Source: Vishniacozyma victoriae
Taxonomy: Eukaryota > Basidiomycota > Tremellomycetes > Tremellales > Bulleribasidiaceae
DNA length: 64,000 nucleotides
Direction of reading: 5' to 3'
Assembly: GCA_017654735.1 (NCBI GenBank)
Contig: JADPYG010000001.1
Span: 806,001-870,000 of the forward strand
Shown: positions 19,732-55,136 of the stretch, one piece after another
Position numbering within the stretch: position 1 is the first letter of the stretch
Layout: each line of letters opens with the position of its first letter
Made by a program: the position numbers and the translations under genes
Notes under the pieces: model-generated
The model's input: only the letters and a program-made list of their open reading frames with translations
What the model was told of the DNA's origin: nothing
The model's database searches: none

Positions 19732-21136
19732 TTACTTCTTAGCGGCGACCTTCTTCTTGGGGGCGACGGCCTTCTTGGGAGCGGCTTTGGTAGCGGCGGC
19801 CTTGGCTAAGCTATCAGTAAGATTCTTATGAAGTAGAGAATAATGACATACCGGCAGGAGCCTTCTTGGTACCGGAAGCAGTCTTCTTAGCTGGGGCAGC
19901 AGCCTTCTTTGCGACGGGCTTCTTGGCGGCAGCGGTCTTTGCTGCTGGCTTAGCGGCGGCCTTGGCGGCAGGAGCAGCCTTCTTGACGGGAGCCTTCTTG
20001 GTGGCGGCAGCGGTGGTGGTCTTCTTGGCCGCTGGCTTAGCAGCGGGCTTAGCGGCAGCCTTGGTGGCGGTCTTTGCGGCGGGCTTGGTGGCAGTCTTTG
20101 CGGCGGGCTTGGCGGCAGCAGCCTTCTTGACGGGTGCGACGTTCTCCTTGTCGGCAGCAGCGGACTTCTGATCAATCAGCATATTATCACATGTGATTAG
20201 AGGGGAGACTGACTTTGGCGGCAACCTTGACTCGACCGGCAAGACCCTTGGGGAGAGATAGAGCACCAGTCTCGGAACCTCGCTTGATAGCGTTGTTGAG
20301 GTTGTTGGCGTTGGAAGCAGAAGACATGTCGAGCTTGTACTTGTCGGCAAGGAACCTGTTGGTGAGACATGTACAAATTGGAGTTGCACGCGGTGGCGAC
20401 TTACTTCTTGATAGTGGGTCGAGAGACACCAGCTCGGGAGTCCTCGGGGTTGGCCTTGACACATTCCTGGTTGATCAGTAAGAGGACACGACAGAGATGT
20501 GAGTCGGTGATCGGGAATTCTTCCGGAACAGGTAACTTTTTGGGCGGATGGATGGGAAGCTGTCATCTTGTATGCACCACTAGAGTGCATAACTAGTCAA
20601 GACCCGCTAGGTCCATGAAGGAGAAGAAAGAAATCGATGAAGCGTGAGAGAAGAGGATGTGAAGAGTGGCAAACCCGAGACAGTCGGAAGGTGGGGTGGG
20701 AGATGATGGGATGTCCATATCCGGCAGTCTGAAGCAGAGGCAGCGATGCATGCATCACTGTAGACATGTTGTGGAGAAAGAGAATGTTGACGCAGAAAAT
20801 CGCAAGCAAGGAGAAGGTGATGTGATGTGGGGGAACGATGACAGGAGTCGACGCCTCCTTCTCGCGCGGCGTAAACAAACAACGCGTGAGCGGATTGAGA
20901 GCCAGCGAAGCTTGATCCCGATGCATCCAGCTGTACCAAGCGCACAGCTGAGCGAGAGAAGGGGATAGCATACTCCACCGGACTCGATGGGGTGATATGG
21001 ATCGAAGGACCCGAATGGGAAGACCGAGAAACCAAAGCCCCAAGATAGATCAATGACTTACCTGGATCATGGCGAGGAAGGTGGGGTGGGCAGAAGCCTT
21101 CTTGGCGACGGGTGCTGCTTTCTTGGTAGGTGCCAT
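19732..21136 (-). CDS. Linker histone H1
   Basis: A chromatin linker histone. Start MAPTKKAAPVAKKASAHPTF (21136); globular winged-helix domain HPTFLAMIQ-ECVKANPEDSRAGVSRPTIKK-FLADKYKLD-NNLNNAIKRGSETGAL; then a long Lys/Ala/Pro tail with repeated AAKPAAKTATK units and terminal KVAAKK. Five exons; the second intron boundary falls inside the globular domain. The intron between exon 1 (ends 21061) and exon 2 (starts about 20466) is close to 600 nt, more than ten times the usual size here. The DNA behind the tail is a GC-rich imperfect repeat, about 19870-20160. Confidence 0.92.
19870..20160 (-). repeat. Imperfect tandem repeat encoding the H1 AAKPAAKT tail
   Basis: Repeated GCGGCTTTGGT/GGCGGTCTTTGC-like units on the plus strand encode alternating Lys/Ala/Pro/Thr. 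This is a coding repeat, likely length-variable between strains. Confidence 0.6.
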
Positions 21137-40415: not shown

Positions 40416-40973
40416 TATAATCTAAAGTGATTTCTATTAGATGAATTGGTAATGGATAGATGGAAGAAAGACGGGCAAGAAGTTCACAGAGCTACTATTT
40501 ATCTACTGGCGGTCCCCGGAACGACCCGCACGAGTCGGGTGAGTCTTCGACCGATGGCTCTGGTGTATGCTCCCCCGCATTGGTTACAAGCTAGAAAACG
40601 TCGGCGAGTGCACGGCCGAATTCTTCTGATTGGATCAAGATATGATTTTCAGGGACCGCGAATCCCGGTTGTTCTTATCAGCACACAGACGAGCCAATCA
40701 GCGGAAAGATGAGCTGGGCCCTGAGATCTGGGGACCGGAGAAACGCCGGGAAGCTGAAATTCTAGGCGTCTGGTGTGCCCTTGCCTTGATCGGCTGCTTG
40801 CGGAGGGGCTGTACTGACTGCTGAAGAGACCCCTCCGAGGTAGATTCGATGCTTTGACAGACAATCAGTCTTTCTCGAAGGTTCGCCTCTGTCCTTTCCG
40901 CATAGAGGCAGGCAGTTAGACGTGAATGATGGGAGCAGTGTATATTAGACACACGTTGCGAGGGCCAACACAG
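40416..40973. other. GDH1 upstream region
   Basis: Promoter of GDH1 (minus) up to the tRNA gene. Contains CTTATC (a GATAAG site on the minus strand) at 40674-40679. No coding exon seen on either strand. Confidence 0.5.
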
Positions 40974-41060
40974 GGTCTTGTGATCCACCGGCTAAGATGT
41001 TTGATTTTGATTGCAAAGCATATACTTCAGAATAACTGGGTTCGACTCCCAGCAAGACCT
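40974..41060 (+). tRNA. tRNA-Gln (anticodon UUG) with a 15-nt intron
   Basis: A full cloverleaf can be drawn. Acceptor stem GGTCTTG/CAAGACC (7 pairs) with discriminator T at 41060; D arm ATCC-ACCGGCTA-AGAT with A14, G18G19, A21; anticodon stem TTTGA/TCAGA (one G-T); loop TTTTGA...T giving anticodon TTG at 41007-41009; intron 41011-41025 in the canonical position after base 37, containing a CAA that can pair with the anticodon; 4-nt variable loop; T arm CTGGG-TTCGACT-CCCAG. The B box GGTTCGACTCC is perfect, and a T5 run follows. Read by hand, not by tRNAscan. Confidence 0.9.
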
Positions 41061-41068: not shown

Positions 41069-41471
41069 GCAGTTCTGGCAAGAGCGGGTTCGAGGGGGCG
41101 GAGCTGGAAGAAGGTATAGATCGAGGTGGCAAAACATTTCTGAGATAAAGAGTCTCGGTCGCTTTTTACACATTCTGTTTCTTTGCATGCACACAGAGCC
41201 CTATGCATTGCTATCCACCTTGTTCATATTACGCGCATCTTGAATCGGCAAGCGGTACCGGAGTGAACAAGGTAAAGTAGTTGCAGAGTGAAAGAGGTAA
41301 TTTCCATTGGTCAGCAATTTCCAAGCGCCATGAACCCTGATTTTACCCGAGAATGACCTCTAATGGATCAACAGGATCAGTTGTAACTGTTGTACTCATT
41401 CCAACCGTCCTCGAAACAGCTCTAGTAAGACCAAGAAACAAGTCAACAATGCTGGAAGGAGCTTTGTAAAA

Positions 41472-41773
41472 GTGCGAACGAGATAAGGATTCCTAAAGGT
41501 GATTTGAGAAAGTGCGAATCAAATAAGGATTGCTGAGAGGTGATTCAAAAAAGTGCGAATCAAATAAGGATGCTCAAACAGGACTTGAAAAAGTGCGAAT
41601 CAAATAAGGATTGCTGGAAAGAGGTTTGAAAAGGTGCGAATCAAATAAGGATTGGTGAAAGGAGGTTTGAAAAAGTGCGAATCAAATAAGAGTTGCTGAA
41701 ACAAGACTTAAAAAAGTGCGAATCAAATAAGGATTGCTGAGAAGAGGTGTTTAAAAGTGCGAACGAGATAAGG
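41472..41773 (+). repeat. Left outer array: 8 units at 40-41 bp
   Basis: The core GTGCGAA(T/C)(C/G)A(A/G)ATAAGG begins at 41472, 41512, 41553, 41593, 41634, 41675, 41716 and 41757, a pitch of 40-41 bp. The linker keeps a consensus ATTGCTG...GG.TTGAAAAA. The two outermost units have GAACGAGATAAGG, the inner six GAATCAAATAAGG. A degenerate extension (GCTGGAAGGAG) reaches back to about 41448. Confidence 0.95.
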
Positions 41774-41784
41774 AGCTGAAATGT

Positions 41785-41866
41785 GCAGTGAATAACGATG
41801 GGGCAATGGGTACAGAGACGGCAGTGGATAGAGATGCCACAGTGGATAGTAGTGGTGCAATGAATA
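41785..41866 (+). repeat. Left inner array: 5 motifs at exactly 18 bp
   Basis: The consensus RCARTGRRTA starts at 41785, 41803, 41821, 41839 and 41857, each 18 bp apart (GCAGTGAATA, GCAATGGGTA, GCAGTGGATA, ACAGTGGATA, GCAATGAATA). It lies between the outer array and the SNF2 start codon. Confidence 0.85.
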
Positions 41867-42079
41867 CCTCGAGTACAGGATAGGCGCCCGATGACGCGCC
41901 TAACTTACACCTCCTTCATCCGCGTCTTGATCATCTCTCGTTATACTTACTCTTTACTGTACTCATCAAGCTACTGCTCTTATACTACTACTTGCCCCAT
42001 ACCTATACATCCCATCGCTACTTGTCCTACCTATACCCACCACAAATTTCGCCAACCACCAACTCCTACGCGTGTACCA

Positions 42080-45000
42080 ATGTCGCATTCCGCAGGAATC
42101 TCTTCGCCAATGCAAGGCTCGGAAAGGAGTGCAGTCTCTACCAGTACCGTACGAACTAGGAAGCGAGCACCGAGTGAAGCTGCCTACAAGCCTCTCCTCT
42201 ATCATTGGTGCAGGTTCGAGGAGGAATATCATCCCTACAAGCAAGAACATGTGCAATCCCTGCTATCCATCTTTTACCGGTGTGACATTCAAACAGAAGA
42301 TCATCATCACCTGACCCCTACGCAAAAGGAATATCTCATCAATCCTGGTCACGAAAGGCTTTACCCCGTCGACATCACAAAACTCAACAGAGCATTCTTG
42401 TCGAAACATCACGAACCATTCCGTCGTCTCGCCGAGGCTGTACTGTTGGCTTCTATGAAAGAATGCGGCTGGGACATGTGGGAAGCGTACGCTGCGCGTA
42501 TGAAGTATGGACTGGAAGGATTTTACCGCAACAAGGAGTATCCAAGTTGGTTACAAGACGCCTCGTCAGAGGATTCTGTAGTATCCCAGGCAAGCCAGTC
42601 GCTCTAGGTCTAATGACAGGACTAACAATCAGATCCGAGTTCCCGACGATGTCCTCTACACGACTATTGCGGCACTGTTTGGTTTCTTTGGATTGGACAT
42701 GCCGCCAAGCACCCCTGGAGAACGGGAAGAAGCTCGTCAACCCACCAGAAAAGCCCGAGAGGCTCGACGCGCATTTCAAATCGCAGAAGGAAGAGGGGAC
42801 ACTCTGTCGGGTTCAGAGTCCGACGAGGAAACATACATGGAAGTCGATACCCGAGATCCTTACTATATACCGAAACCGATCACAAGAGGAACTCGACGCG
42901 ATTGTTTCGTCTACGTCAGATGTCTAGCCTATCATCATGTCTTGGACAATCTAGGCAAGAATGTGGGGAGATGGGCTGGGAGGCAAGGAGAAGCAGCGAA
43001 TAAAGCCCTGGGGATAGAGAAGGGTGAGTCTGGATCAGATCTCTTCGCAGGAGCTGACTGTCGCAGAATTGAGACTAGCAGAAGGCTGCTTGAAACCCCC
43101 TCGTCGACCCCAAGATGATGGAAGCCAAGACTCGGACGCGGTGTATTCACAAGAAGAATACGACGGCAACGACCGTAATGAGCAGCTTGCCAAATTCAAG
43201 TCGAATTTACAAGAGTTCAATAAAGCTGTCATCCAATACGCCAAGGCAGACTCGATTGTCAATCCCCACATGCCGGACCCGACACAATCCTTTCTCAAAC
43301 GATGCGCTGCGCTACATGAAATGTCTGGCAAATACGATCGGTATCTTCAAGTCGAGTCTCAAGGAGACCCACAGCTCCTCAAAGCTCTACAGTCTTATCG
43401 AAAGACTGAATTCTACATTCTGGATTCCGAAAGGAGGACGGCAGGAGAGCACGAGAACGATATGCAAGAAGATGCACCTATGCCAGAGGATGTGGACGAT
43501 TTCATGACGTTAAGGGATTGTCAGGATGGCGATTCCCAGGAAAAGGAGACGATGCCTTTGGGCATGTTTCTCTATGGATACGATGACAGGCATACTCCGT
43601 GTATTCTAGCTGGACTAGAAGCGGACAAGTGGCCTGGTATCAACACCCACGACTCGCTTGTTGGATCCAAAAAAGGTCCAATCCCTATATCCTTACGCCA
43701 ACACTGCAGCGACGGCGCGGTCGAAATTGTCGCTCGAGCCTATCAACATAAATCTCGAGCACAACACCCTACCAGGAAGATCAAGCCCAATTTGGACACC
43801 GACTACTCCAGTGGTTCCATCATCGCCGACGCGACCGGTATGGGTAAGACGGCCCAAGCAATGCAAATCATTGGACTCGTCGCCCATTTCGCCATCAAGT
43901 TCCGCTTGGCTGATGATGAAGAGGAGGCGCACAATCAATTCCCTCCCATCATGCTTGCCGACCGACAAGCTTTAAGGTCTGCCATGGAGGATGATCGCCA
44001 TTCTTTAGGGAACGACTACGATCCTACCACCTCGATTCAATCCTACATGTCGAGTATTCAAAACCTAGGGCAAGGTGCATTCGGCACGTTTGCTCATACT
44101 GGTAGAACCGCTCCTCCATGCCTTCCATCTATCATCGTTGCCCCGCCCGCCGTCATCGCTCATTGGAAAGCAGAAATGTCTCGCTTCTCGGGTGATACGT
44201 TAGTGGTGGTACATATTACCGATCAACGATCAGCTTCAAAATCCCTGGAGTATGTGCAAGAAGTTCAAGCGGAATGGGAGGATGAGGTAGAGTCGTCGGA
44301 TGCTTTGCCTGATGTACTGGCACCAGCACATCTCGTGGTGCTCGTGTCGACCAATCTCTTGTCTAGGATGTGGAAGACGCGGAAAGAACACGAGGACAAG
44401 GACGGAAGGAGGAAGCTGGATATATTCGACCTGGATTACTCGGTCTTGATTATCGACGAGGTCCATATGGCCAAGGCCAAAAATCAACTTCAAACCGCAT
44501 GTCACAATCTTGCCAAGAAATGTAGTTTGAGAATCGGCCAATCAGCTACCCCTCTGGTCAATTCCCCTCTAGACGTGTGCATCATTGCCAACGCACTCAA
44601 CCTCCCGCAGGCAGTCGATGTCGCCAACAGAAAACCCTTTATACCTTCATCGACATCCCAAAAGCCAATGATTCCAAATTTCTTTCAGAAGGCGCGATAC
44701 TCCTTGGCAGCGCAGAGGGACCTGACTCGATGGTCCATGACCAAGGCGATGGAGGACTTTTACACCGTTTCCGATAACACGGACGGGTCTCGACCTACCT
44801 CGTACCTATCCGCTCCCATAAGTCAAGCCCGCGACATGAAGGAACTGGCCAATTCGGTTCCAGAGAGGCTTCTGGTGGATAAAGAATACGAGCGAGCTGC
44901 GAGCGATGTCTTTGCGCTTTTTGGGCCTTATATGATGCGTCGCAGCAAATTCGCGTTGACGAGCTCTGGGAAAAGGATGCTGCCCTTGGGCAAGTTGACT

Positions 45001-48000
45001 CAAAAGACGATCAATGTTGAGCTAAGGGATGACGAGGTTGAAGATGTCAATCAATACTTGGAAATACTTTGTGAGCGTCGCATAGCGAAGTTTGGCGATG
45101 ATTATGCTTTCAAGTGAGTAGTATCTCTGGTCTTTAGCTGATTTCCAGAGACCGATTAGGTTACTTCGGTCCCGCTTACGCCGCCACCAAGTCTGCAACC
45201 ATCGCGCCGTCCTACTTTCTTCGAGGTCTTCCCACCAGTCTTGATAAAGCTGAGCAACACAAGACATCTTCCAAATTACAGGCCCTTGTTGATTTGATAA
45301 AATTGCTTATGAAATGGGATAAGGACAACAATACTCCGCCAGAGAAACAATTCAAGTTTGTGATACACTGTGATTCGCGCGAGGTCGAGCCTGCAGTACT
45401 ATACGTGGGTCATGTTCACTTTTGTTTCCGAATGGCTCTGTACTGACTATGTCAGGAGTTACACGCCAGGGGCATGAGTGCAAGAGTGTTTGATGGGACC
45501 ACCTCGGAAGCCGAGAGACGCCGTATCGAGGCAGAGGTCAATTCCGATGATGACCACGACTCTACGCAGTTTGATAAAATGATACCTCCCTCAAAGACAC
45601 GTATCTTATTCTGTACACCAGTTGCGGGATTGGGAATCAATCTTTGGCGTACCAACATTGTCATAAACATGGCAAGTGGACTCCTCACCATGCAGCCCCC
45701 AATTGGCTGACGTTGATAGACTATGCCGTGGTCGCTAGCGACTTATGAGCAAAGGTCAGGTCGACATCACCGTACACCACCTGATCCATCTCGAGCGCCA
45801 TTGGACGTAACCGTGTACACCATCATTGCCATCAATAGCGTTGATGTAGTAATGTACACTGCAACCGCGCTGAAATCGAGACTTGATATAACTACTTTCC
45901 GCCATCCTGCAACGAGGGAATTGTACGGCTTGCTGGCTCCAGTCGAGGACATGGGGGCGAAGGTGGTGGTCAATCATCCTCATCAAGTACCCAATCTCCC
46001 GCGATACAGGCGGCCGGTCGATTTGCTCGCTATCGATTATCAGAAGAATAAAGAGTTATTAACGAACACTACCCAATTCGAGATGTACCAGCATGTTCAT
46101 ATCATTTCAACCCTACGACACCTACATTTGTCAAACACCAAACTCGATTCCCTGATCATCAACCTGGCGAAGACTGTAGTAGATGCTTTCGAAGAGACTA
46201 CGGTCGAGGAGGAACCCATTGAAGATCTGTCTGAAGAACTTGCAAACGTTGCCAACCTGGGTTATATACCGCTGGAAATGGCCGAAAACGAGGAAACCCC
46301 AAAACCGAAAGAGGTGTTTAAAGCACACCTTACTGCAGCGGTCACATTTGGTCGAAAGTCAATTGGGTTAGTGAGGAATGATGCCGTCCTCACCAAAGAG
46401 AGACTTGACGAGGCGCCTCAGTCGCACAGGGAATGGGAGGTTAGTTTTGCGTAAGTTTATAATCCCTCTTGACTTACAAGGTAATAGGCTGACTTACGCA
46501 GGGAATCCCTCACTCGAATGAAGGAGATCCAAACCCGTCGTCTTCGAGACTACGAAGACAACGTTTGGAAGCTCATCCGCTCTATTCCTCTACCGATTCG
46601 CGACCACCTGGGGGTTTTTACATCGCAAATCGTGATGCTCAGAATCGAAGGCAACCGGATGGCACGGACATTGACTCTCATCGAAAACGTGCCCGATATT
46701 CCCGAGCCATTCGATGACTGTGTCTACTGGATTCAAAGGGCCTTGGTTAACGACTGTCTTTATCCTGATCAGGAAACGGGACCACCGTCGTCTGGTGATG
46801 TCTTGGTTCGTATCGACACTCCACCCAAGGAGACATCGGAGCGCCAGCCGTCTACGCACGCATCGCAGTCTGACGAATCTTCCACAACCGGCCGACTATC
46901 AGAGCCATCCACCGAGGTTCGCAGCCCTTCTCGAGCTACTATATACGGGAATCCTCGACCTGCGATCCTGCCTTCTTGGGCACACGGAGATCTCGACCTA
47001 GATCCCATCGATTCAAACAGAGTCAATCACTTCCGACCCTTTCTCGGCCCGTTCCAAGGCCCCGGCAAGATACAGCCCTTGTCTTCATACGCTATTTCAT
47101 CAATTCGCCCGGACTTATCGGCAGAGGAGTTGAGGGGCACTCCGTGAGTCACAGCTTGCTTGATATCGCGTGTGCTGATATCAGGTCATTATCCGATGAC
47201 CAGGAAAGCGACGACGATCAACCTGCTCAGTGGGATATCATCAAGTTGCCCAATCGACTTGCTAGCGCCCGTAACTTGATACTACCTCCTGGAGTGCCGC
47301 CAATCGACCCAATCAAGATGGCAAAGGACCGTATGCTCAACAAACGTCGAGAGTTCGTTAATACGCTTGTCAAACCTAATCCCAAGCGATCACGATCGCC
47401 GAGTCCCGAGCGTCCACTCAAGTATCGCAAAGGAGGCATGGTCGAAAGTAAAGATCTTGCACAATTTACCCAGGCTATCGAACAGGACCTTGAGGATGAT
47501 GAGTTCGATAAGATGTTCGATAAGACATTCGGAACCGAGCTTTTGGACGATACCTCGCTGATGGACTTCGTCGATGAACCTGAGGATCAGCCAAAGAAGA
47601 TGGCAAGCAGGTGAGCAGGATCTTCTAAACAAGTGACCTGCTGATGTTTAGCAGCAAGACCAATAAAGCTGCCATTCCTACCCGAGTCTTGCCTACTCCG
47701 AGCTTGGCAAGGAACGATGTGTCGAGCCGTAAACCGAACAAAGCTGCAATTCCCACCCGAGTCTTGTCAACTCCTCAGAGCTTGGTAAGGAACGATGTGT
47801 CGAGCAGTGAACCAAACAAAGCTGCCAATCCTACCCGAGTCTTGCCGACCCCCCAGAGTCTGAAATGGGACGATGAGCTGGACGAAGCTCTCGATGAGAT
47901 AGGAGCGGGGGATGGTCACGTTATTGGGTGAGCCAGACCTTGTCGAGACCAGACTCGAGCTGACCTCCATAGACACAGGTCGAAGAATGTCATCGGCTTT

Positions 48001-48263
48001 GTACTGATGCTGGAGTACTTGGTGTATGACTCGGGGGAGACACCTGATGAAGCTAGGTGGTGAGTTCAGCCAACTTTCGCACTGCATAGACCCGACTAAG
48101 TATTGATAGGGTGGACGAGGACGAGGCCCAGTTTTATCCCGTTCAGGTTTATCTGAAATTGATAAAGGACGATCGAGAAGATCGCTTTGACAGGTTGGAC
48201 TACACCTTACCTAAAGTACGACATTGTTGGAATGAGGACGGGACTAGGGTGACACGTCACTAG
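42080..48263 (+). CDS. SNF2-like helicase/ATPase, 1909 residues, element-encoded
   Basis: Eleven exons (42080-42589, 42633-43023, 43067-45113, 45149-45404, 45456-45671, 45720-46450, 46502-47143, 47185-47610, 47652-47927, 47979-48059, 48110-48263) total 5730 nt in frame. After an unrecognised N-terminal region of about 550 residues come the superfamily-2 motifs: DATGMGKTAQAMQI (I), PSIIVAPPAVIAHW (Ia), IIDEVHMAK (II, DEVH), GQSATPLVN (III), then RILFCTPVAGLGINL (V) and EQRSGRHHRT (VI; normally Q..R.HR). The roughly 700-residue C-terminal region is unrecognised, with three 26-residue tandem repeats (KAAIPTRVLPTP type). Introns 1 and 5 need GC-AG splicing, otherwise the frame stops. An in-frame ATG at 41891 lies in a CT-rich leader and was not preferred. 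Confidence 0.82.
47652..47880 (+). repeat. Three 78-nt coding tandem repeats in the SNF2-like gene
   Basis: Three copies of a unit encoding NKAAIPTRVLPTPxSLxRNDVSS (26-residue period) in exon 9; the third copy diverges after TPQSL. Near-identity at DNA level (CCCGAGTCTTG in each) indicates recent duplication. Confidence 0.85.
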
Positions 48264-48668
48264 ACAGGATGGGGTAGATGGGATTTCAAGATGATTTTCC
48301 TTGCCTATAGTCAATATACTTATAGCTGCTATGTATTGCGTGTGACATCATTGGGGGATCAGGTACATTACACACAATTAACGATCATATGCGCTTTGAC
48401 CCAAGATACCTCAACTTTAAAACCCTTCATTCACCTCGCCCTTTGCTGCTAGTACTTTCCTCCCTCCTCTTCTATACCACAACCCCATATCCAGCAAAGC
48501 TAGTAAGTAGATCTTGATGTTGAGAGTCTAGTGCTAATCTATAGGTCCACTTATCAGCAGAATCTAAATTAGACTCGTTAGGTCGCACAAGTCCCAGATC
48601 AGAATCAGTAAGTAGGACCACCAATCAGCTGAAGATGCTGATGCTCCGGCAAGTTCAAACCACTCGTC
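48264..48668. other. Intergenic region inside the element
   Basis: Terminator of the SNF2-like gene and leader of the next gene. Several GTAAGTAG donor-like words (48506, 48608) followed by AG acceptors suggest one or two 5' UTR introns. No coding exon identified. Confidence 0.4.
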
Positions 48669-49469
48669 ATGCCAAGGGCACCAGCTACAGCTCAGAAAGA
48701 CAGGACGGATGCACAATTGGCTGCCGGCAGGGGTAATGGCGACTTCGTACCATCCATCAAGTCCTGCACCATCGAAGGGTGTCCCTACACCGCCCGTCTT
48801 GGACCGTCGATGGACGAACACATCGCTACCGCCAAACACACCGCCTGCCCCCGCCAAGGCTGTAGCGGGTCGTATTCAAGCACCATGAGGACTCTACACG
48901 ACTGGAAGTCCCACGGGATCAAGGGTCCGGTCGCCACAGGACGACTCGAGTGCAGGTATGCGGGCTGCGAATTCTCCACGAACGAGTTTTCGAAACGGAA
49001 CAAGCACGAGGACGAGATTCACATTGAGTGTGACGTGGATGGCTGTGGGTTCAGGGGTAGTCGTGACCAGTACACGCACCACGAAAGATGGGATCACGAA
49101 GCAGACACTCCTAGAGTCAAAAGCGGTGTTTTGTGAGTTCATCAACCACATCACTGTGCTGCGCTTACTTTGTCTAGCTGGACTGCCGCGGAGGATGCTG
49201 TGCTCGACTTCTTATGGCTGAAACATCAATCATTCAATGACACCCTGGAGATCATCCTGCAACTCTTCCCCCACCGAACTAGTACCGGGACCAAAGCTCT
49301 TCAACCTCTCGAAGCCCATATTCGAAAACACAGAGAACGGTACGAGAGGATGGATATGACTTTGAAGGGAGAGGGAATCGTCAGGAGGTTGAGGGAATTA
49401 GGGCTATTGACAGATGATGGCCAGATCAAGAGGGGAGAAGCCTCAGGTTCCAAGATTGAGGAGGGGTAG
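48669..49469 (+). CDS. C2H2 zinc-finger / SANT-like DNA-binding protein, element-encoded
   Basis: Two exons (48669-49132, 49178-49469) give 251 residues. The N-terminal half has four Cys/His pairs of C2H2 type: CTIEGCPYTARLGPSMDEHI..H, CPRQGCSGSYSS..H..H, CRYAGCEFSTNEFSKRNKH, CDVDGCGFRGSRDQYTHHE. The C-terminal half starts FWTAAEDAVLDFLWLKHQSF and ends in RKHRERYERM, resembling a Myb/SANT helix bundle (W-x3-ED...). Combining fingers and a SANT-like domain points to sequence-specific DNA binding, plausibly at the flanking arrays. That target is inference. No family name recognised. Confidence 0.8.
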
Positions 49470-49829
49470 TTATTCATCCCGAAATGCGGTAAATTTCAAG
49501 ACAAGAGACTTTCGAGAGAAGCGACCTTCTGTATGCATCCAAGCCTGTATTCCAGAAAGAATCAGCTAAATATTGAGAATATTGAGCGCTTATACACTTG
49601 CGTATCAAAAGAACATTAGGCATGTCCGAAGCAATACACCAACAAACATTACTATCCCGGGCAGTTGCTTCGTTAGTCTGTCTAATTGCTCTTTATCTGG
49701 TTGCAGTCCACATATACATAACATATAGAACTTATATATATGTATATATATGTGTCTATATATCTTATCCATAATTGTACTACACGTCTATCTACTTTAG
49801 CTAAAATGGAAGAATCATCCATATTGCAC
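49470..49829. other. Convergent intergenic region inside the element
   Basis: Shared 3' region of the zinc-finger gene (+) and the nuclease gene (-). It holds a TA-rich microsatellite at 49732-49763 and otherwise nothing recognised. Confidence 0.5.
49732..49763. repeat. (TA)n microsatellite
   Basis: Imperfect TATATATATGTATATATATG-type run; probably a terminator-proximal low-complexity tract. Confidence 0.7.
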
Positions 49830-51873
49830 TTAAACGGACCAATTTCCATTAATTCCCATCATGAATACGGCCTTGAAAAGCTCCCAGGCCTGAGCCAATG
49901 TTTCCTGCAGCTGCCTCTCAGACAACCTAGACTTGGACCTCCTTCCAAACAACCCGCCGTGATCCCCTCCGCTCCCATAAACATTGTAGCCGTTGTAATC
50001 TCCTAATTTAGAAGACCACATAGGATAGTGACCTAAAGGTATACCCTCAATCCCCTGCGAGATGTAATCTCTATGCTGTCGTACCTGGATGTCAGTGCAG
50101 ATGGGAGCGTGACTTACGTTCTTTGGTTGATAAAAAGCATGTACAGGAATCGGATACCTCGACTTGGCGAGCCTCAATTCAGTGTACTTGCTTTGCGAGA
50201 TGATCTCGCCGTCTTTCTCGAAGGTCTCTTCCCGGAACAAGTTCCCATATACCCAACTTAGGCCAACCTTTTCGTAACGGATGATTGGGATGATGATTTT
50301 CCTAGCTTCTAGTTCCGCTCGTGACATTCCTCGATCATCAGCATCATACTGAACACAGCTTGACTTACCGTCAACTCCCACCGGCACGGGTCTAAGCCCA
50401 TTGCGCCAGTACTTCCCCAATTCGAAGTCATCCAGCTGATTTTGGAAGTAATCGTATAACCCTTTCCACACCTTCGCCAAAATCGCACCCTTTGCGGTGT
50501 ATGTTTGCGTATTAGAAGGAGGTCGAGGTGGTGCATAGGGCGGTGAATCTACCATGTTGATTTGAATGGAGTTCGAGCTTGTCGATAGCCTGGCGGAGCC
50601 AATGAGAAGCGTCTCAATACAGTGCAATACCGGTTGAGGTATCTCACTCAAGCCAGTCTTTCCAAAAGAAGCCAAACGCCTTGATATCACGGTGTCGGCC
50701 GCTGGTCGACCAGCTAATGCTTTTCGAGTTCGAGAATTTCCTTGCTCGCCAGCTTTGCCGGCGTTGTGCTGTCTTTGTCTCTGCGCGATATCTCTGCTGA
50801 TGCCAACGTAGTAGTCATACTGTATGGTTAGCAGACATCAATCAGATCACTCACCCCTGGTATTTTCCTCAAGTAAAGGCCAACTTCTTTTTTGGCGTCT
50901 CTACCTGGAATACCATCCTCGAAAGCTCCACCGAGATCCAATGTTCCGGAATCCCCTGCCTCGTATAGTCGATAGAAAGCATCTGAAAGTTCTTCAGAGC
51001 CGGCATCTAGGAGCAATGCTAGAGCTCGGTCGACCAATTGATCCCCGTCGTGATCTTCTAGGAAGACATCCCTGAATGAGCTTTTGAAGGGGAACGCCTT
51101 TCGCAGCCGTCCATCATTGTAGACGAACAATCCCCTCGACTCCTTGGCAACGATTCTTTTGACGACGTCGATGCAGATTGCTGCCTGAGATCGTCAGCTA
51201 CTGGTATGCTCCACTGATTGTGGACTCACTAGCTCCTTGGACTCGGTGGTGACCTGAGCGTATTGTCGGTCCACGTGTGAGATGATCCATCTGTCAACAG
51301 CGCCCTCAACCTTCTTCATTCTCTTCTTCTCCGCCTCCGTAATAGTCTCATCTGTAGTAGCCAGCCTCTTCAACATATCCAATGTGATCTCCACATTGTC
51401 CTCCGTCAATTCAAATTCTTCGACCTCCTCATCTCCTTCTTCCTCTTTAACATCCCCATCTTCTGACTCCAGATCTTCATGCCCATCTTTCCCTTCCTCC
51501 ACCTCGACATCCCCATCCTCATCGTCAGAGATGACAATCGGTTCACTGTTGGCGACCTTTGTATTGGAGCTGGTTGATGCAGCGGCTTGATTTAGAAATA
51601 TAGGATAGAGAGGCAGAACAGGTTGGGGTGGGGGAGGTGGGGGTGAGGAGCTGGTCAGGTCGATGAGTTGGTTTGGGTCTTTCGGAGCTGGTCGTCCCCT
51701 GCGGACTAGGACGTCGTTGTCCGAGTCACTGTCAGGGAGACGTCCCTTGGATGGACCCGCTTTCGGGGAGGACCTAAAGTCAGCAGATGGATCAACTTGG
51801 TCACTCACTTGGCCCTCTTTGCTCTTGGAGAAGCGTTCTCCTTGTTATGATTACGCTTAAAACCGGCTGCCAT
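49830..51873 (-). CDS. GIY-YIG endonuclease with SUMO-interaction-like motifs, element-encoded
   Basis: Five exons (51809-51873, 51230-51773, 50855-51184, 50118-50819, 49830-50084) sum to 1896 nt, 631 residues. The N-terminus is basic (FKRNHNKENASPRAKRAK). Residues about 60-150 hold LIDLTSSSP and EPIVISDDEDGD, both matching SUMO-interaction motifs, and a long acidic run. The nuclease fold spans about 303-385: GLY (305-307), YVGIS (317-321), R327-x3-H331 and a metal-binding Glu in HCIETLLIG (E382), the full GIY-YIG set. The C-terminal about 250 residues (ending GINGNWSV) are unrecognised; ILAKVWKGLYDYF begins them. It is transcribed toward the SNF2-like gene, with its promoter next to the right arrays. 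Confidence 0.85.
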
Positions 51874-52053
51874 TGTATGTATAAGGATAGCTAAGATCAA
51901 AGAATATGAAATAAAGAATGTAGATATGTGAGCTAGCTCAGAAGAAAAGAAATGAGTTGAAAGTAGAATTAGATGAAGGAAGAGAAGATGGTCAAGTGGG
52001 GTGCCACACTCATGTGATCGGGTGTGAAACAACGTTATCTATAGTCAATGTGC

Positions 52054-52135
52054 GATTGAGTGCAGCAGCGTGATTGACTGCGTCTTTAGGATTGACTGTG
52101 GGGTCATGATCCCACTGGTATCAGGAATCTACTGC
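52054..52135 (-). repeat. Right inner array: 5 motifs at about 18 bp
   Basis: GATTGACTGC-like words (plus strand) start at 52054, 52072, 52090, about 52108 (one-base shifted, ATCCCACTGG) and 52126. Their reverse complement, GCAGTCAATC, matches the left RCARTGRRTA motif in core and spacing, in mirror orientation. Confidence 0.75.
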
Positions 52136-52164
52136 ACTTTCCCTATTTCAGCTTTCTTATCTCG

Positions 52165-52436
52165 TTCGCACTTTTTGAAACTCCTTTTTCCACCCATTCC
52201 TTATTTCATTCGCACTTTTTAAAATTCCTCTCTCCACCAATTCCTTATCTCGTTCGCACTTTTGAAAATCCCCCTCCCCACCAAATCCTTATTTCGTTCG
52301 CACTTTTTGAAACTTCTCTTTCCACCAATTCCTTATTTGATTCGCACTTTTTGAAATTCCTTCTTCAACCAAAATCCTTATCTCGTTCGCACTTTTTGGA
52401 ATCACCCTTTCCACCAATTCTATATGTAGTTCGTAC
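52165..52436 (-). repeat. Right outer array: 7 units at 44-45 bp
   Basis: TTCGCAC (GTGCGAA on the minus strand) starts at 52165, 52209, 52253, 52297, 52341 and 52386, with a degenerate TTCGTAC at 52430: a 44-45 bp pitch. The unit on the minus strand reads GTGCGAACGAGATAAGG then AATTGGTGGAAAGAGG..TTTC. It is followed inward by AGCTGAAAT, as on the left. Confidence 0.95.
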
Positions 52437-52487
52437 CTTTCGTGCCCTTCTCTCTTGCCCTTTCCCTTTCGCATCTATTGATGCCAC

Positions 52488-55136
52488 TCACTTCCATCGG
52501 ACGAGCTCCTCGTCAGACCCTGCTTCTTCGCTGTCCGTTTCCTCCTCGCTACTCTCCTCCTGGTATTCGGGGGCAGTACTCTGAGATGGACCTCTCGCCG
52601 CCAGCATCGGGGGCGCTTCATCATCACTGACATCAGCCCTTCCTCCTGGATAGGTGGTAGCTGGACTTACCTCTCGGACTCTTCGCTACTCTCTTCGCTA
52701 TCGCTATTGAGGAAAGCATCCAAATCCTGAAATTTGGCTCTCCCTTGTAATGGTAGAGATCCAGCTGGAGAGCTGCCGGCTGGCGATAAATCGGGCCGTC
52801 TTGCAGCAGAGGAGAGGTGTACTGGGCGAGGCGCAGTGGACACGGGCTGTGCCGACGAGATGGCTGCTACCGGTACCGCCTGCCTCTTGAGATCATCGAG
52901 TTCGGATTCACGTAACGATGGATCGGTGGGATCGTCGGTCCACTCTGGTATACCAGTGTATCCATTGAGCTTCCGACCGATAAGTCTAGACATGGATCCG
53001 ACATCATAGTCTACAGAAGCCTGAGCCGGACCGTCTTCTGCGTTGCCTCGCTGAGCGAGGAGGACCACCTTGACTTGTTCACGACGGAGGACGACACCAC
53101 CAACATCCTCGTCCTCGTCATTCGTGGCCGCCTTCTCGTCCTTGATCCCACGTTGCAGAGCACCTAGGAATCGAGCGCGATCACGGATGTCGTAGTCTTG
53201 GTCATATCGAGCGAGAGTGAAAAGGTATTGCGAGAGTTGAAGCAAGAGAGGAGTCGTAGGGGAAAGTACCAGTAGCTTGGTCGCCAGTGTCAAGATTTGA
53301 AGCTTGGCGATGTTGGGCTATCTGTCAGCTATTGAACGACATTGATACGTACTTCCTGAACAAAGCCCTTGACACCCTTTCTGAGAACATCCGGCACCCA
53401 TGCTGCCACTCCATCCCATCCTAGACCGTGTTTTGGGGGTACATCGCTCGCCGCAAATTGGCCGACAAGCCAGTATACGGACGCTCGGGCTCTGGCGTTC
53501 GTGATGCCGTCCAATTGCTTGGCCAAGCGGGCGACGAGATTCTGTGGTTCAGGAAGGGATGATCCAGGCGTACGTGACAAAATGACTGATTTGAGGACAA
53601 TGACGGTCTGTGCGACCAGAGTATCTCTCGAGCTCCTTAGGAGTTTCATGAGGGAACTGAGTCCAGCTGCTGCAACTTCTGGCTGGTTTCGGATACATGA
53701 ACCAATAGAGCGGACGGCTTCTTCAGCCACATCGTCGTCAGTGAACCGAACATAGTGCTGTTGTCAGCCAGCATCCCGTTAAATGACATACCTTGAATTC
53801 TCTGATTGACGCCGAGGCATTCTCATTCGAGACTAGGGCAGCCATCGCCTTCATCTTGGCAATCTTGACGGCGGTCGAGTCGGACTCGTGTACGTAGAAG
53901 CGGCTTTGGTGCGACGAAAATAGCCACTATCATCAGCCCAGCCAGTGCGAGGTACTCACCTTTCTCTCTTCCACCATCGACACAATGACGTCCCAGGTCA
54001 AAGCTGCAATCTCCTCGCCCCTGGCCGAGACATGCGAGGCCCCAGCGAGATGTAGTAGAGGAGCAACAAGCAGCTGCTGTCCTACAATCCCATTTGCAGG
54101 CGCAAGGTGGTAGTAGGCGTTGGCCATGCCGAGAATGACGGCGGGATTTCGAGACTGGAAGAGCGGTTTAGCGAGATGCAGAAACATGGCGAGGTCGGTA
54201 TCGATGCCGTCAAACTCGTCTTCGCTCTCTTCACCAGCTGCTTTGGAATTGGGTTTGGTGATAGTGCTGGGGTCGATGTTGCCCGCGGTATCTGGCCTTT
54301 CCAACATTGTTCGAGCGTAGAGGGTCAAGACCTGTAGAGCGACAATCTGTCCCCACTCGTCGGCATCGACCAGTAGGCGGACGATATGGTGATAGTAGGG
54401 GTGCAGTAGGTCCATTCGGTCAGGACAGATCTCCATGAATGCCGTTAAGGTTGCGCCGAGGGTCAAAGGCGACGGGGAAGCCAACAGCGTCTGAATGAGA
54501 GCGATAAGCTGAGGCAGAGATGACGAGTCCATGCTAAACTCAGCTTAATCTTCACATGCAGTACTCACTCGTAGACTTTGGCAAGACCGCCTGCGACGGT
54601 CTTTCGGACCCACGGATTCCTGTCATTGACTAGCTTCTTCAGACCCAGCATGACGATACCTTGAATGACCGGTACTCGAATTGACGTCAACACTCGCAGT
54701 GACATGGACCGTATCAGCGGTGAGGGATCCGAGAGGTCTTTCTGGAACGTATTGATCGATAGTAGCAGTAGATCCGAGTTGGTAGCCGCACTATGTATGA
54801 GCTAGGCGTATAACAACAGACTCACTATCTCAGCAGGAATATATAGACCAGCTTCCTAATTTCAATACTGCCAGCAACAACATTCTTGACAACCTGAGCA
54901 AAGAATCCTTCCATATCCCTCCCCTTGGACAGCCCAGCAATGATCCGCTTCATAGCTTCCAGCCTATCCCGTTCCGACCTTGACTCGAGCAGCTTGGAAA
55001 TCTCTTTAATCTTGTCATCGGAAGTGTCGAAATATGGCGTAGACGAGCCCGCACCGCCGGTCAGGAGCTGGATATCACGAGTCGACTCGATAAAGTTCTC
55101 CTTGATCCGCTGAGTGAGCCGGTTCAAGGCTGCCAT
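52488..55136 (-). CDS. APL6: AP-3 adaptor complex subunit beta
   Basis: Large subunit of the AP-3 coat for Golgi/endosome-to-vacuole transport. The adaptin trunk of about 650 residues is helical: MAALNRLTQRIKENFIESTR, then EAMKRIIAGLSKGRDMEGFF, VKNVVAGSIEIRKLVYIFLL, RNPWVRKTVAGGLAKVYD, CPDRMDLLHPYYHHIVRLL, and later FKHYVRFTDDDVAEEAVRSI. A hinge follows, ending in a Ser/Glu-rich acidic tail (EESSEEETDSEEAGSDEEL, stop at 52488-52490) typical of beta3. No appendage domain is seen, as in many fungi. The last repeat of the 11-kb element lies about 50 bp past the stop codon, within the probable 3' UTR. Confidence 0.92.

Follow-up and report, generated by a model that had tools for sequence, protein, structure and literature searches.

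We have analyzed a block of about 11 kb in the genome of Vishniacozyma victoriae, in which three apparent DNA-handling genes, for a SNF2-type ATPase, a C2H2 protein and a GIY-YIG protein, are framed by mirror-image repeat arrays. The block lies in a window of 64,000 nucleotides (the whole stretch of DNA analyzed, G000:C1:806001-870000), taken from an assembly of 11.58 Mb in 17 contigs. The core of the outer repeats is private to this locus, and the two ends resemble each other in the spacers between the cores as well as in the cores themselves. These ends are probably homologous inverted copies of one ancestor. The explanation that we tentatively favor is a cassette run by its own DNA-binding protein, possibly of mobile descent and at present single-copy, either fixed or rarely mobile.

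The mirror-image arrays

The arrays and their junctions are listed below by position in the window.

41450..41781, + strand: left outer array, 8 units of 40-41 bp with the core AAAGTGCGAAYSARATAAG
41774..41782, + strand: junction AGCTGAAAT of the left outer and inner arrays
41786..41875, + strand: left inner array, 5 units of 18 bp, CARTGRATA-like
52045..52134, - strand: right inner array, 5 units of 18 bp, CAGTCAATC-like
52145..52153, - strand: junction AGCTGAAAT of the right outer and inner arrays
52156..52437, - strand: right outer array, 6 units of 44-45 bp and one decayed outer unit

The outer arrays were identified by TRF at 41450-41781 (period 41, 8.2 copies) and 52156-52420 (period 44, 6.0 copies). 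The core pattern has 8 matches on the + strand of the window and 6 on the - strand, spaced by 40-41 and 44-45 bp, respectively. An earlier note on this DNA had counted eight units of 40-41 bp on the left, which stands, and seven of 44-45 bp on the right, which becomes six good units and a decayed seventh with its core at 52414-52436. Core positions are numbered here from -3 to +15, with 0 the G of GTGCGAA; 15 of the 19 are invariant over the 14 units and a 16th differs in one unit, while +7, +8 and +10 are variable. The inner arrays of five 18-bp units, also described in the earlier note, hold at both ends when assessed by 2000 letter shuffles per side. No shuffle reached the score of the left array; on the right none did so at period 18, and one did at any period between 12 and 25 bp. 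The junction AGCTGAAAT is common to both ends, as had been claimed (41774 on the + strand and 52145 on the - strand), and has one further occurrence in the window, at 40752 (+), outside the arrays. Mirror symmetry around the three genes is thus present at two nested levels, in the outer and the inner arrays alike.

Throughout the assembly the core matches at 14 places when up to 1 mismatch is allowed, and at no others when up to 3 are allowed. All of them fall inside the two outer arrays, and the reversed pattern used as a control gave none. When the assembly was searched by BLASTN with the left end, the only matches were that end and, in two overlapping pieces, the right end (78%, best E 1.5e-44). 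Since the core is restricted to the two arrays, it is no regulatory motif in general use across this assembly; that explanation is excluded by the absence of any core match beyond the arrays at up to 3 mismatches. An origin by chance or as a simple repeat is excluded by the genome-wide core count together with the shuffles. Two stretches in viral contigs contain a single core match each with no array around it, and these were taken as chance.

The left and right inter-core spacers align with a mean score of 5.8, a value that the right spacers, shuffled 1000 times, never reached (shuffle mean -2.0, maximum 0.74); the right spacers score -0.6 when reversed. Because the spacers, beyond the cores, are alike across the ends, the two ends probably derive from one ancestor, and copying of the arrays is more probable than their assembly site by site. 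The same likeness makes it unlikely that the mirror arose through independent gain of factor sites. Overall, the inverted ends, about 400 bp made of arrays, are alike at about 78%, and the innermost unit and the junction are nearly identical between them. The variant CGAGATAAG is present in the junction-adjacent unit of each end, in the outermost left unit and in the outermost good right unit, whereas TCAAATAAG is found in all six inner left units and in one right unit, a distribution that suggests that the left array may have grown from within.

The likeness of the ends ceases past the inner arrays. Between inner array and start codon the two upstream regions have a likeness score of 21, against a shuffle median of 18 and a 95% point of 24 (n=300); only the nested arrays are duplicated and the remaining upstream DNA is not. 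The arrays lie 308 and 283 bp from the start codons of the two outer genes, both of which are transcribed inward. Mirror geometry alone is therefore no proof of a transposon, since one control region copied before each inward-facing outer gene would give the same picture.

The three genes

The gene models were built by hand, without transcript evidence.

42080..48263, + strand: SNF2-type ATPase gene, 11 exons, 1905 residues
47650..47845, + strand: 78-bp repeat, 2.6 copies, mostly within exon 9 of the SNF2 model
48669..49469, + strand: C2H2 protein gene, 2 exons, 251 residues, four C2H2 patterns
49830..51873, - strand: GIY-YIG protein gene, 4 exons, 642 residues

By their domains and motifs all three genes look to be of the DNA-transaction type, in agreement with the earlier note. 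The SNF2 ATPase label holds: the protein exceeds the Pfam cut-off for the SNF2-related domain (PF00176, 50.3 bits) and Helicase_C (PF00271, 50.5 bits), and motifs I, II, III, V and VI, located by sequence patterns, are intact (GMGKT, DEVH, SATP, GLGINL and QRSGRHHR). The Pfam scan covered the protein as two overlapping pieces (residues 1-1471 and 1381-1905), and no family was found outside the ATPase core, over about 540 residues before it and about 750 after it. A sequence search with the SNF2 exon gave no match to solved structures, and no relative was confirmed in viral and prokaryote contigs. Seven weak matches of this exon to prokaryotic defence models, the best to ZorD at 24 bits, were read as generic SNF2 likeness.

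In the assembly, the C-terminal 525 residues of the SNF2 protein match only themselves, while residues 1-1471 match themselves, a stretch of contig C11 and a broken fragment on contig C16. The C11 stretch (26% identity, E 7.7e-4) is probably another SNF2-type gene. In the C16 fragment, part of this SNF2 gene family is present a second time, in broken form. The fragment covers about 0.9 kb (C16:131951-132805) and shows 40 and 47% identity with internal stops, or 35 and 39% in a second comparison. Alignment of this relic to about 0.86 kb of the gene gives 518 identities, 281 mismatches and 73 gap columns, with a score of 312 against a maximum of 33 over 30 shuffles, and intron-like stretches can be read by eye at the same places as in the gene. 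Mismatches between the relic and the SNF2 exons number 65, 48 and 130 at codon positions 1, 2 and 3 (chi-square p 1.4e-16); the excess at third positions argues that the protein was under constraint for much of the period after the split, taken over both lineages together. Outside the SNF2 part, the 40 kb of C16 compared gave a single DNA match, in which 38 bases align with simple sequence in the GIY-YIG gene (E 0.03). Also close to the relic (L030:1804-1871, on C16) is a 68-bp piece of a repeat, about 230 bp long, that is dispersed in the assembly. This repeat occurs at 7 further places (L034-L040), on 5 contigs, with some pairs 99% alike and others about 70%, and is possibly a short non-autonomous mobile element of the assembly.

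The zinc-finger label given to the 251-residue protein holds for its four C2H2 patterns and not at the level of Pfam, where no C2H2 family exceeds the cut-off. All 10 of its PDB matches (E up to 1) are to zinc-finger proteins, although they are weak (best E 0.047). A SANT/Myb domain had also been assigned to the second exon; Pfam gave no family for that exon at E up to 10, so that this label comes from reading by eye and is not retained here. The GIY-YIG label, too, is upheld in part. The complete motif set is present, in the order GIY...YIG...R...H with a later E...N (patterns at model residues 305 and 382), in the layout of GIY-YIG nucleases, while the Pfam score of the 642-residue protein, 18.7-21.5 bits, is below the curated cut-off of 22.6. 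The protein would be shorter than 642 residues if a probable in-frame intron of 36 nt were removed from the model. No match to solved structures was found in a sequence search with the GIY-YIG part, and no relative of the GIY-YIG exon was confirmed in viral contigs. Single-sequence structure predictions were uninformative for the C2H2 and the GIY-YIG exon (mean predicted local distance difference test scores, pLDDT, of 33.0 and 32.9). Searched against the assembly, each of these two proteins found nothing but itself. The GIY-YIG search of the genome gave a single further match, at G000:C10:6438-6596 near the start of contig C10, which is over the cut-off with 39.7 bits.

Comparison with known mobile elements

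The cassette shares parts of its anatomy with several known systems. The TNPA protein of CACTA/Spm-En elements recognizes subterminal repeats and can also block transcription (PMC2613891). Like these elements, the cassette has short repeated motifs near both ends, for which CACTA elements encode their own reader (PMC2613891). It differs from them in having no match to a transposase family, no terminal repeat outside the arrays, and motifs arranged in regular tandem arrays. The CACTA element described in PMC2613891 has a 3-base target duplication; our search covered words of 6 to 12 bases, among which none was convincing. The cassette also resembles Mutator elements, whose inverted ends carry promoters (PMC3276141). 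Unlike MuDR/Mutator, it has no transposase match, a 9-bp target duplication was not found, and its ends are about 78% alike rather than highly conserved.

The KDZ elements (Kyakuja/Dileera/Zisupton) are DNA transposons found in fungi including Cryptococcus (PMC12810828, PMC12730594). The three cassette proteins have no KDZ match, and neither 'SNF2' nor 'GIY-YIG' occurs in the main texts of these two papers; a KDZ search of the assembly found none, with the control genomes equally silent. A GIY-YIG endonuclease is shared with Penelope-like elements (PMC6431247), from which the cassette differs in its lack of a reverse transcriptase match.

Proposed origin and working of the cassette

In the explanation that we favor, the two ends would form one duplicated, inverted control and recognition region of the three-gene cassette. 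The cores, one about every four helical turns, would be putative binding sites of a protein whose only arrays in the assembly are these. The likeliest reader of these sites is the cassette's own C2H2 protein. When bound it would control the SNF2 and GIY-YIG genes, whose transcription runs inward from the arrays, and it may in addition pair the two ends. By its anatomy the cassette most likely derives from a DNA mobile element, and it would now be a single-copy resident. A recognition system of its own is favored because the motif is private, because two nested arrays were copied, and because the three apparent DNA-handling genes include a candidate binder. Mobile descent is favored because of the CACTA/Spm-like and Mutator-like anatomy and the SNF2 relic elsewhere, this diverged and broken fragment being the only hint of movement.

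Several results weigh against mobile descent. A second cassette or further array was not found in the assembly by DNA, motif and protein searches. A comparison of the edges (41380-41475 with 52405-52520, words of 6 to 12 bases, the element ends being approximate) found no convincing target duplication of at least 6 bases, the longest shared direct word having 6 bases and being misplaced. Nor was a terminal inverted repeat found outside the arrays, where the longest inverted word in about 100 bases per edge has 7 bases. The mobility proposed in the earlier note is not confirmed by these searches. That note had recognized no known transposase class, which is borne out: the Pfam scan of the three models contains no recognized transposase, and no reverse transcriptase either. 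Around the relic no arrays and no companion genes were found in 40 kb of C16, where the C2H2 and GIY-YIG proteins have no match at E up to 1. The candidate binder, moreover, is the protein that falls short of the C2H2 Pfam families. Finally, neither G+C content nor codon use sets the cassette apart as foreign. The G+C fraction at third codon positions is 0.52-0.62 in its three genes and 0.45-0.68 in 9 neighboring open reading frames of at least 250 residues, which were chosen mechanically and served also as the codon yardstick.

A rival explanation is an ordinary, fixed host locus that was never mobile, in which two inward-facing host genes share an upstream control region by inverted duplication and the arrays are a dedicated promoter element. 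We regard such a locus as quite possible. The similar distance and orientation of the arrays to both outer start codons would be enough for the mirror, and the single copy, the lack of a detected target duplication or outer terminal repeat, the 14 introns of the three models (15 with the further probable one), and codon use and third-position composition within the spread of the neighbors, with overall G+C not deviant, all fit host genes. On the other hand, a host regulator usually has further targets and the core is confined to this locus, both nested arrays were duplicated while the remainder of the two upstream regions was not, and a partial, broken SNF2 copy lies on another contig. Mobile descent with present immobility comes out slightly ahead of the plain host locus.

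It is improbable that the cassette is a live element of a new class, in which cutting would fall to the GIY-YIG nuclease, reading of the arrays to the C2H2 protein, and synapsis or strand access to the SNF2 ATPase. All three gene types resemble DNA-handling proteins with no known transposase recognized, the GIY-YIG motif set is complete and the core is private; furthermore, neither a pairing of SNF2 with GIY-YIG in a eukaryotic mobile element nor a description of such an element was found among the open-licence papers listed, as judged by titles and the openings of abstracts. Yet there is a single copy, its ends are only about 78% alike and lack a target duplication, joint relics of the three genes were not found in the assembly, and a divergent transposase may hide in the familyless parts of the 1905-residue protein. 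A broader reading, a new eukaryotic mobile or selfish class that combines GIY-YIG cutting, C2H2 reading of the arrays and SNF2 remodeling or pairing and dispenses with DDE, HUH, tyrosine-recombinase and reverse-transcriptase enzymes, is likewise unlikely in our view. We assign only a very small probability to the arrays being iterons of a formerly extrachromosomal replicon, now integrated, whose genes served its maintenance: the spacing is iteron-like and the ATPase is of helicase type, but Pfam recognized no replication initiator, polymerase or partition gene in the three models, and there are two inverted arrays instead of one.

Should the cassette be mobile now or have been so in the past, an enzyme may be missing from the usual list of those that carry out transposition in eukaryotes. 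If it is fixed, it is a compact locus with a private recognition code, a motif present at one place only in 11.58 Mb and duplicated in mirror image about genes that are probably under its control.

Flanking genes and other features of the window

To the left, the cassette is adjoined by an exon of an ELFV (glutamate-type) dehydrogenase and by a tRNA gene at 40974-41060, about 400 bp from the left array. The tRNA was detected by Rfam (40.8 bits) and not reported by ARAGORN, perhaps because of an intron. To the right is an adaptin gene, whose stop codon (read by eye) is separated from the outermost right unit by about 50 bp. The earlier note had labeled the tRNA as tRNA-Gln and the adaptin as the AP-3 beta subunit, which we keep as putative names. 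The right array (window 52156-52488 region) thus extends to about 50 bp past this stop codon and may sit in the adaptin 3' untranslated region. Elsewhere in the window, several GC-rich tandem repeats, their periods ranging over 12-36 bp, lie clustered at 19735-20118.

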